Shown here piece after piece: positions 4,381 through 56,614 of a stretch of DNA of 64,000 nt. The notes under the pieces were generated by a model. That model worked only from the letters and a program-made list of their open reading frames with translations, was not told the DNA's origin and did no database searches. The DNA comes from Pleurocapsa sp. PCC 7327 (GTDB taxonomy: Bacteria; Cyanobacteriota; Cyanobacteriia; Cyanobacteriales; Microcystaceae), in NCBI RefSeq assembly GCF_000317025.1, contig NC_019689.1, positions 1,005,501-1,069,500 of the forward strand, read 5' to 3'. The translations under genes and the position numbers were made by a program. Within the stretch, counting starts at the first letter, position 1. The number at the start of each line of letters is the position of its first letter.

Positions 4381-4760
4381 AATATCCCCCTGCTTGTTTG
4401 CGCAAAAATTAAACCATTCATCTTTGAGTTTCTTTTGACTTAAATTCTCCTCTACAATTTCTGTAGCGTTCTAAAACTTATAACAGGATAAATAATATAG
4501 CGTTTTGTAGTATAGCAATAAAGTTTTTTGCATTTTCGATATGTTAATAATTGCAGTCAAATCATTAATAATTGTCTTATTGTCTTGCGTTTTATTAACA
4601 GGTTGTCTGAAAAGTAGAGAATGTCATGTTGAGCGTCGCGATCGCGAAGCGAAACATCTTCTACCGATTCGCAATTGGCAATTATCAGTTCGCAATTGGG
4701 AAATAGAGATGGATTCTAGCCAGGAATTCAATGTTTTTAGATTTTAATGGCGAATGGCGA

Positions 4761-4840
4761 ATTATCAATTAGTCAACCGCTCTGTGCGTAAGGCTTTTTC
4801 CTCGAGCATCTGTAGCGTTCTTGTTTAGAGATGGTCTTAT
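4761..4840. repeat. Dispersed intergenic repeat, copy A
   Basis: Shares a clearly related string with 9518-9606: AATTAGTCA, a CTCTGTG block, then GAGCATCTGTAGCGTTCTT and an AGAAATGGT-like tail. Neither copy codes for protein. Confidence 0.7.
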
Positions 4841-9502: not shown

Positions 9503-9517
9503 AGATAATACCAATTC

Positions 9518-9606
9518 GCAATTAGTCAGCAGCTCTGTGTGCAAAGCTTTTTTATTGAGCATCTGTAGCGTTCTTTTTTAAGCGTTCTTTTTTAGAAATG
9601 GTATAA
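9518..9606. repeat. Dispersed intergenic repeat, copy B
   Basis: Second copy of the repeat at 4761-4840. Here the segment GCGTTCTTTTTTA is itself partly duplicated in tandem. Confidence 0.7.
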
Positions 9607-22800: not shown

Positions 22801-22908
22801 GTCAGTCAACCAGAGCCAAACCTCAATCCGCCAATCCATAGATGAATTTGATTAGTTACTCTAGGGAGAAACGACAGACGCAAATATTGCACCTTAAGCA
22901 CTAAAACG

Positions 22909-22988
22909 CCCAGAAATCAATTTCTGGGTTAATAGCCAAAGTCCACCTAAGTGGACTTTAGCTATAAGCCAGGAACTTCAGTTCCTAG
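22909..22988. repeat. Multi-hairpin dispersed element, copy 1
   Basis: Three hairpins in a row: CCCAGAAA/TTTCTGGG (22909-22928), AAAGTCCAC/GTGGACTTT (22938-22959) and AGGAAC/GTTCCT (22971-22986). The layout and spacers recur at 31939-31988, 42326-42407 and 55939-56021. Confidence 0.85.
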
Positions 22989-22998
22989 CGGACTGGAA

Positions 22999-31938: not shown

Positions 31939-31988
31939 AGTTCTCTTGAGAGGACTTTAGCTATTAGTCAGGAACTTCAGTTCCTGGC
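31939..31988. repeat. Multi-hairpin dispersed element, copy 2 (partial)
   Basis: Retains the second and third hairpins of the family (AGTTCTCT/AGAGGACT and AGGAAC/GTTCCT) with the spacer TTTAGCTATTAGTC, close to TTTAGCTATAAGCC of copy 1. Confidence 0.75.
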
Positions 31989-32106
31989 TAACTTTGGGGT
32001 GAGATAACATGATGACATGAAAAAGAAATCGCCCGACAAATGATAGCAGGGACACATATATTACGACATAAATAATGATATATCTATATACCTATAGATA
32101 GAGCTT

Positions 32107-42284: not shown

Positions 42285-42325
42285 CGCGTTAGAATTGCCC
42301 ATCTCTTCCAAGAGTCCTCCACTCG

Positions 42326-42407
42326 CCAAGAAATTAATCTCTTGGAACCAATATAAAAAGTCCTCTTCAGAGGACTTTAGGTATGAGCTTAGAAATTAAT
42401 TTCTAAG
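42326..42407. repeat. Multi-hairpin dispersed element, copy 3
   Basis: Hairpins CCAAGA/TCTTGG (42326-42345), AAAGTCCTCT/AGAGGACTTT (42357-42378) and CTTAGAAAT/ATTTCTAAG (42388-42407). It lies between two convergent genes and may terminate both. Confidence 0.85.
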
Positions 42408-55072: not shown

Positions 55073-55885
55073 ATGATGCATGGTTTTATTCCGCAAAAAC
55101 GTTATTTTCCCTATCTCACTTGGACTGAAATTCAGTTAATGTCAGATAAAGAAAATGTTGTCATGATTCAACCTGTCGGCGCGATCGAACAACACGGACC
55201 TCATTTACCAATTGTTGTGGATTCAGCAATTGGAATGGGAGTTTTAGGAAAAGCTTTAGAAAAGCTAGAAGATTGTATTCCTGCCTATAGTTTGCCTTGT
55301 CTTTATTACGGAAAATCTAACGAACATTGGCATTTTCCCGGAACGATTACGCTTAGCGCTCAAACCTTATTATTAGTCTTAATAGAAATAGCCGATAGCC
55401 TCTATAGGTCAGGATTTCGCAAACTGGTATTGATGAATTCCCACGGCGGACAACCGCAGGTCATGGAAATAGCTGCTAGGGATATTCATCAAAAATATGG
55501 GGATTTTTTGGTATTTCCTTTATTTACTTGGCGAGTTCCGAATATTGCCCATGAATTATTGACAGAAAAAGAACTCGAATATGGCATTCACGCTGGCGAT
55601 GCAGAAACCAGTATCCTGCTCTCTCTTTTGCCAGAACAAGTAAAAATGGAAAAGGCAATAACAGAATATCCCCGCGATTTACCGGAAGATAGTTTATTAA
55701 GTATGGAAGGACAACTTCCTTTTGCTTGGTTGACGAGTGAATTGACTCAAAGTGGAGTTATGGGAGATGCTACGGCGGCAACAAAAGAAAAAGGCGATCG
55801 CTTGCTAGAATCTGTTGCCGATGGTTGGGTACGAGTCATAAAAGATATCTACAAATTTCGTCAGCCAAACGCTAATAAAATATGA
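55073..55885 (+). CDS. Creatininase family amidohydrolase
   Basis: A 270-residue protein with the creatininase metal sites: GAIEQHGPHLP (Glu39, His41), a following Asp (VVDS, Asp50), NSHGGQ and HAGDAETS. The family covers creatininase and enzymes that open cyclic amides in riboflavin/F420 and mycofactocin pathways. No pathway partner is adjacent. The stop codon overlaps the native start of the next gene (ATGA at 55882-55885), so the two were translationally coupled before that gene was interrupted. Confidence 0.9.
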   Translation: MMHGFIPQKRYFPYLTWTEIQLMSDKENVVMIQPVGAIEQHGPHLPIVVDSAIGMGVLGKALEKLEDCIPAYSLPCLYYGKSNEHWHFPGTITLSAQTLLLVLIEIADSLYRSGFRKLVLMNSHGGQPQVMEIAARDIHQKYGDFLVFPLFTWRVPNIAHELLTEKELEYGIHAGDAETSILLSLLPEQVKMEKAITEYPRDLPEDSLLSMEGQLPFAWLTSELTQSGVMGDATAATKEKGDRLLESVADGWVRVIKDIYKFRQPNANKI

Positions 55886-56614
55886 CATCGCATTCAGAAT
55901 TACCGACAAAATTAACAGGGCTATTTCATTCTCGAAAGCCAGAGAATAAATTCTCTGTCTAATATCTTAAGTCCTCCTATAAGACAGACTTAAATTTTGA
56001 GCCAAGAAAATCATTTCTTGGTTAACTGCAATCAGAATGAAATAACCCTGCAAAACTAACCAGTCGTTTTGAAGAAGCTTTAATTTACGCCACGCAACCC
56101 CACGCTGGTCAAATCAGAAAAGCAAGCGGCGTACCCTATATCAGTCATCTTTTAAGCGTCGCTGCTTTGGTATTAGAAGATGGCGGCAATAAAGACGAAG
56201 CGATCGCAGCCCTTCTACACGATGCCATAGAAAACCAAGGCAGCGATAAGATCCGTCAAGAAATTTATCAAAAATTTGGCGAAAGTGTTGCCAGTATTGT
56301 CGAGGCAGGTACCGAATCGGATACGATTCCCAAACCGCCTTGGAAAGAACGAAAATTAGCTGCGTTCGCGCGGTTGCGAGATGCTTCGCCTCAAGTGCGT
56401 CGAGTTGTTTTAGCAGATAAACTGCACAATGCGCGATCGATTTTAGTCGATTGGCATCGCCATGGAGAAGAGATTTGGAATCGATTTCAAGGAGGTAAAG
56501 AGGGAACGCTTTGGTTTTATCGGGCTATAATTGAAAGCGAGCGATCGCTACAGAGGATTTAACGTTCTCACCGAAGAACTCGATCGCATCGTCAAGCAAC
56601 TTGAAATCCTCTAA
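55882..56614 (+). pseudogene. HD-domain (RelA/SpoT/MESH1-like) hydrolase, interrupted by a small transposon
   Basis: The native start (55882, ATGA overlap with the creatininase gene) encodes MTSHSELPTKLT. A 135-bp insertion then brings a stop. After it the frame resumes with SRFEEALIYATQPHAGQIRK and continues to the HD motif ALLHDAIE, KLHNARSI and FQGGKEGTLWFYRAI. Removing the insertion plus one 9-bp duplication restores the frame exactly. A second lesion shifts the frame near 56545: the natural end (FNVLTEELDRIVKQLEIL) lies in another frame and stops at 56612-56614. An in-frame TTG start at 56167 would lack the first HD helix. Intact relatives hydrolyse (p)ppGpp-like or other nucleotides. 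Confidence 0.88.
55916..56050. mobile_element. 135-bp miniature inverted-repeat element (contains multi-hairpin copy 4)
   Basis: Bounded by CAGGGCTATTTCATTCT (55916-55932) and its inverted partner at 56034-56050 (16 of 17 match). It is flanked by a 9-bp duplication, CAAAATTAA (55907-55915) and CAAAACTAA (56051-56059). Inside are the hairpins CCAGAGAATA/TTCTCTG (55939-55958) and CCAAGAAAA/TTTCTTGG (56002-56021). It encodes no protein, so it must move with a transposase supplied elsewhere. Confidence 0.85.

Follow-up and report, generated by a model that had tools for sequence, protein, structure and literature searches.

A MITE with ISAs1-type ends and, likely, a REP-like hairpin core interrupts an HD-hydrolase gene of Pleurocapsa sp. 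PCC 7327

The closest described systems are two kinds of cyanobacterial repeat. For Anabaena sp. 90, the parts of the report considered here describe 147 MITEs in the genome, 77–541 bp long and with predicted secondary structure, 15 of them within disrupted chromosomal ORFs; they were assigned to type II, since inverted repeats like theirs were not seen on any IS of that genome (PMC3542288). The second kind are the GTAG-tagged REPs, palindromic repeats found near IS200-like tyrosine transposases; according to the sections of that work used here, many GTAG-15 dimers of Anabaena variabilis sit inside long palindromes, which is a precedent for nesting (PMC3733652). Nezha, taken here from its citation in PMC3733652, is likewise a mobile MITE of cyanobacteria.

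Set beside these systems by description, the element reported here is like the Anabaena sp. 90 MITEs in being cyanobacterial, structured and located in a disrupted ORF, but its ends equal those of ISAs1 insertion sequences, whereas theirs matched no IS in the account considered (PMC3542288). It is like the GTAG-tagged REPs and their RAYTs, again by description, in that its core palindromes occur near IS200-like transposase genes, but the copy studied has GAAAG instead of GTAG before its first hairpin (PMC3733652). The present findings connect a cyanobacterial MITE family with one particular family of transposases, whereas no such connection was found by the authors of the Anabaena sp. 90 genome for their MITEs. 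Among the matches listed for the ISAs1, MITE, RAYT and cyanobacterial-repeat literature, seen in part, there was no earlier report of a chimera of ISAs1 ends with a REP-like core, nor of an ISAs1 link for this MITE family. The reading that we favor, with a probability of about 0.85, is that of a type-I MITE moved in trans by an ISAs1 transposase, with a REP-like core lying within ISAs1 ends (a chimera), now probably stranded in its genome and leaving a broken gene behind. As a MITE insertion it is ordinary in kind and well supported; as a chimera it is moderately interesting.

The window, i.e., the whole stretch of DNA analyzed, comprises 64,000 nucleotides of the Pleurocapsa sp. PCC 7327 genome, which is a single contig of 4,986,817 bases. 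The features of the locus are as follows (positions of the window).

55073–55885, plus strand: creatininase-family gene directly upstream (ORF; PF02633, E 6.5e-74)
55882–55915, plus strand: first codons of the HD-hydrolase gene, aligning to the intact Hydrococcus rivularis gene
55907–55915, no strand: left copy of the target duplication, CAAAATTAA, one base off the empty site
55916–56050, plus strand: 135-bp MITE; the orthologous site of H. rivularis NIES-593 is without the element
55916–55932, plus strand: left terminal inverted repeat, CAGGGCTATTTCATTCT, identical to ISAs1-type IS ends
55939–55959, plus strand: core hairpin 1, CCAGAGAAT AA ATTCTCTGTC (predicted fold)
55967–55993, plus strand: core hairpin 2, TTAAGTC...GACTTAA (predicted fold, copy alignment)
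56002–56021, plus strand: core hairpin 3, CCAAGAAA ATCA TTTCTTGG (predicted fold, copy alignment)
56034–56050, minus strand: right terminal inverted repeat, CAGGGTTATTTCATTCT on that strand
56051–56059, no strand: right copy of the target duplication, CAAAACTAA, equal to the empty site
56060–56562, plus strand: remainder of the HD-hydrolase gene (HD_4, PF13328, E 1.3e-14; intact 194-aa homologue in H. rivularis)
56537–56540, plus strand: four bases that the congener lacks (positioned by alignment)

The main claims of a preliminary description made from the letters of the window were borne out: a 135-bp MITE within an HD-hydrolase gene (the Pfam HD_4 match agrees with this assignment), 17-bp inverted ends with one mismatch (CAGGGCTATTTCATTCT versus CAGGGTTATTTCATTCT), and a 9-bp duplication with one mismatch (8 of 9 positions identical between CAAAATTAA and CAAAACTAA). 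The span then proposed, 55882–56059, was right at its end, which is that of the duplication, but its start is the ATG of the gene and not the start of the element. That ATG is overlapped by the creatininase-family gene (ATGA). The MITE plus one target copy measures 144 bp, a multiple of three; the HD gene is nevertheless interrupted, since in-frame stops lie inside the MITE and the frame opened at 55882 ends there. None of the listed ORFs lies in the MITE, 135 bp being too short, and the downstream listed ORF (TTG start at 56167, 131 aa) begins past the part containing HAGQIRK.

As single-stranded DNA, the MITE was predicted to fold with an end-to-end stem closing the three hairpins (z of -6.9 versus shuffled sequences); hairpin 2 of the window copy has three extra bases. 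Rfam gave no match in 55700–56300 at E up to 1, so no catalogued RNA family was seen in this region. The exact left end followed by the start of the core occurred in 26 stretches from six named Pleurocapsales-type genomes, i.e., H. rivularis NIES-593, the Xenococcaceae MAGs MO_188.B29, MO_188.B32 and MO_167.B27, and Pleurocapsales LEGE 06147 and LEGE 10410, and had no match in a viral contig collection. Seventeen end-bounded copies, picked from 26 copies with the hairpin trio, were aligned with a mean column identity of 84%. Both sides had changed in 3 of 37 pairs, one of them in hairpin 1, and the covariation term was weak (-0.06), so that covariation lends modest support to the predicted outer stem and three hairpins.

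Concerning the origin of the ends, 39 of the 148 genomes searched in the order carried the exact 17-bp end, while a reversed control matched none. Among the matches listed, there were at least nine IS-sized elements (L161–L169) with exact ends facing each other 1.1–1.6 kb apart. The preliminary description had suggested a search for a transposase with such ends, and a transposase family sharing them was found in genomes other than that of the window. Perfect duplications flanked four of the nine, with 9 bp in L161 and L162 and 10 bp in L164 and L168; L165, L166, L167 and L169 had none, L166 being the best transposase match, and L163, at a contig edge, was uninformative. No duplication was seen at a further locus, L333. 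Three of the nine transposases were tested against the NCBIfam ISAs1 model (NF033564, cut-off 70): L166 (214.7 bits) and L163 (86.8) scored over the cut-off and L162 (69.4) just under it. PF13808 was present in both transposases tested with Pfam, L166 and L162, the former matching DDE_Tnp_1_assoc and DDE_Tnp_1 and the latter DDE_Tnp_1_assoc. For the L166 protein, a search among known structures gave no relative with a meaningful E-value.

The MITE shares with these ISAs1 insertion sequences the 17-bp ends and the duplications of 9 or 10 bp (seen in four of the nine cyanobacterial elements), but it has no transposase. In comparison with eight ISAs1-type elements, its similarity was confined to the outer 17–32 bp; its origin from one of those eight by simple internal deletion was therefore rejected. 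ISAs1-family transposases produce target duplications of 8–10 bp, a range into which the 9 bp found here fits. The ends and the length of the duplication make together a link between MITE and ISAs1 transposase that is strong by sequence: the 17-bp ends would be bound in trans by a DDE transposase of the ISAs1 family, which would move the element, with a 9-bp target duplication being made on insertion and the small HD-hydrolase gene being broken. Other MITEs with these ends were also seen. A 134-bp element of three loci in genome G063 (L171–L173) and one in G105 (L102) has the same ISAs1 ends and perfect duplications of 10 bp, but its interior is unrelated; in view of the three G063 elements with this other interior, it seems that MITEs with ISAs1 ends arose repeatedly.

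The regularity of the duplications was evaluated in 33 distinct elements of 100–320 bp, bounded by ends with up to three mismatches and drawn from all the loci gathered; two of them, L008 and L155, are one site in two congeners, and seven (L102, L103, L109, L110, L172, L173 and L175) have other interiors. A duplication of 9 or 10 bp with up to two mismatches was found in 28 of the 33, perfect in ten cases at 9 bp and in five at 10 bp, and was lacking in L003, L024, L156, L242 and L243. In control pairs, which combined the left flank of one element with the right flank of another, an equally good match was found in 3 of 1056. Among the hairpin-trio copies, sorted by hand, 21 of 26 had the duplication. 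The 17-bp end itself, with up to two mismatches, occurred 39 times in the Pleurocapsa genome, compared with four for the reversed control. In view of these two contrasts, 39 versus 4 and 28/33 versus 3/1056, chance is a poor explanation of the MITE.

An intact ISAs1 element with matching ends was not found in the Pleurocapsa genome by searches with the L166 transposase or with PF13808. The former gave four matches. At 4585864–4586232 there is a truncated ISAs1 remnant, 55% identical to L166 and carrying a stop, with an exact end directly ahead of it at 4585764, and a short fragment lies at 1672176. The remaining two are pieces of a second ISAs1 element, with ends CAGGGCTGTTTCA, at 1.859 Mb, and were all that the PF13808 search found. 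This other remnant (L072), which scored over the ISAs1 cut-off (126.6 bits), was set aside as a different element. In the absence of an intact matching element from these searches, the MITE is probably stranded in its own genome; with the matching copy truncated, it would probably be immobile now. Among MITE-carrying genomes, two-ended IS elements were found in G170 (contig C185, exact ends, no duplication seen) and in G166 (contig C73, one mismatch). As a separate observation, one genome of the family (G008) gave 110 PF13808 matches, an expansion of IS elements.

With a 221-base query around the MITE, at least 47 matches were obtained in the Pleurocapsa genome (40 scored of 75 candidates) and were merged into 40 core regions. 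Allowing up to four mismatches per end, both ends were present within 45 bp of the core in 10 regions, the left only in 9, the right only in 7 and neither in 14; within 400 bp, the corresponding figures were 11, 9, 9 and 11. It had been proposed that the window copy reveals how the hairpin family may spread. This holds only in part: 10–11 regions have both ends, 16–18 have one end and 11–14 have none, and cores without ends also surround genes of Y1 transposases, as described below. Copies of 176–180 bp have an extra segment in hairpin 3. Several older copies have AGTAG directly after the ISAs1 end, with GTAG preceding the hairpin, while a young subfamily that includes the window copy has CGAAAG in that position. 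Nested within one copy (L014, 1747028–1747294) is an insertion of 92 bp, whose inverted ends, CAGCGGTT...AACCGCTG, adjoin TA dinucleotides; we take it to resemble a Tc1/IS630-type MITE.

Outside ISAs1 ends, the core was found at locus L253, where five whole 86-base cores, 79–83% identical to that of the window, follow an open 175-aa Y1-transposase frame. They are in tandem with a period of about 189 bp and have no end at up to four mismatches; their hairpin loop has three bases, and a narrower first hairpin scan missed the locus. At L255, a Y1 gene of 151 aa has four copies of hairpin 1 around it; end-less hairpin 1 was repeated at L254 and L271 as well as at L255. A search of 50 genomes of the family with the L255 protein gave as top matches L303 (G020, contig C114; 65%), L304 (G172, contig C1; 57%) and L305 (70%). 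The last one, at 3975309–3975590 of the Pleurocapsa genome, is a decayed Y1 gene without its N-terminal part, with hairpin 1 about 30 bp away; at L303, parts of the core were matched on both sides of the gene, about 220 bp downstream and 1 kb upstream, and L304 has other hairpins. An ISAs1-type end with up to four mismatches was absent from L253, L254, L255, L271 and L305, and L303 had one four-mismatch match about 1 kb from the hairpins. The hairpin-linked Y1 proteins matched only PF01797 and NF033573, and their closest solved structures were IS200/IS605 transposases.

The scan for this association covered 63 Y1 loci (30 taken from the 76 matches in one search, 30 from the L255 protein search, plus L135, L253 and L255), which amount to 61 places because L135 coincides with L305 and L279 with L318. 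Core similarity was found at four places (L253, L255, L303 and L135/L305) and at none of the other 57 scanned; L253 and L255 had been chosen because of their core matches, L303 and L305 had not. Because the core occurs without ends around Y1 genes, it is read as a REP-like system and the MITE as a chimera. So, judging from the sequences, it is likely that a REP-like core was joined to ISAs1 ends; the hairpin repeat would have come to lie between them, with no order of assembly implied. Its position between IS ends may have opened a second route of movement to the repeat.

A stronger form of this proposal has the core as substrate of a RAYT-like Y1 enzyme and the outer 17 bp as substrate of the ISAs1 DDE enzyme, the family having spread through cyanobacterial genomes by these two unrelated chemistries and the copies that start at GAAAGCC being Y1 products. 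We consider it doubtful. Five copies of H. rivularis (G002) and three Pleurocapsa regions start exactly at GAAAGCC and have no left end; the latter are 3716141 (same site as L152), 4009418 and 3714489. In L150–L153, the G002 copies that keep the right end, the nine bases beyond that end are not repeated at the left junction, as judged by eye; L157 is without a right end, and its nine flank bases were left out. Such copies could reflect either recurrent deletion or processing by a Y1 enzyme. At three sites compared with the congener, no clean empty site for an end-less core was found: at 4009418 only a left end, with no core, is present in the congener, as would be expected after a deletion; the Pleurocapsa genome has a different, rearranged site in the case of L150; and the two flanks of L153 are about 8 kb apart there. 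Some end-less cores may thus have lost their ends. A separate repeat of about 53 bp, at positions 390–442 of L150, has several dozen matches across the Pleurocapsa and H. rivularis genomes.

The same loci bear on an alternative in which the hairpin family was a MITE from the start, its end-less copies being decayed remnants of ISAs1-bounded ones and the Y1 association incidental. It agrees with the 16–18 of 40 Pleurocapsa regions that keep one end, with the few further ends gained on widening the search from 45 to 400 bp, and with site 4009418, where what seems to be one insertion has left a different part in each of the two congeners. It has difficulty with the five tandem three-hairpin cores of L253, which lack ends and repeat with a period of about 189 bp, with the repeated end-less hairpin-1 copies of L254, L255 and L271, and with core similarity at four Y1 places and none of the other 57, bearing in mind that two of the four were fetched for having it. 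On balance this alternative is unlikely, and we keep to the chimera.

Concerning the age of the insertion, the preliminary description had suggested looking for an uninterrupted allele in a close relative, and one was found in the congener H. rivularis NIES-593, the only genome close on both sides of the site in a search for matching flanks. Both flanks match it at 94% and are contiguous around a single CAAAACTAA, within a gene for an intact 194-aa HD protein. Because that empty site has a single CAAAACTAA, the deviant copy of the duplication is the left one, CAAAATTAA. Besides the insertion, the HD gene has a further frame change: the 4-bp difference near its 3′ end leaves seven codons after IIES, compared with 23 in the congener. 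To describe the element as caught inserting is therefore an overstatement, in view of the deviation of CAAAATTAA from the empty site and of this additional frameshift in the gene; the insertion is real but not fresh. The comparison of two congeners allows the gene disruption to be placed. Some insertions predate the split of the two congeners, since the element at site 4745336 is present in both (L008/L155), and one could imagine that the window insertion was also old and shared, and that H. rivularis lost it by precise excision. This is improbable, given that the congener has an unbroken gene of 194 aa containing a single target copy and that the precise loss of an element with one target copy is rarer than insertion.

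Least probable of all is that a REP/REPIN-type repeat was moved by a RAYT-like transposase alone, the inverted ends being merely its outer stem: the hairpin anatomy, the association with Y1 genes and the GAAAGCC-start copies without left end (five in H. rivularis and three Pleurocapsa regions, one pair being orthologous) are what it would lead one to expect, but the ends are identical to those of ISAs1 elements, 28 of the 33 end-bounded copies have target duplications of 9 or 10 bp, and the duplication of the window copy contradicts it, no target duplications being known for IS200/REP transposition.

Other repeats were observed in the window and near the hairpin copies. Weaker matches to the hairpin modules of older, longer copies occur in the window at 1573–1651, 4667–4808, 9512–9561, 22884–22991, 31939–31989 and 42323–42403. 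A sequence AGGTTGTCCC(A)AAA recurs beside several hairpin copies, in the flanks of those at 3351097 and 3247926 of the Pleurocapsa genome and in the left flank of L153, and the sequence around it is apparently another interspersed repeat.
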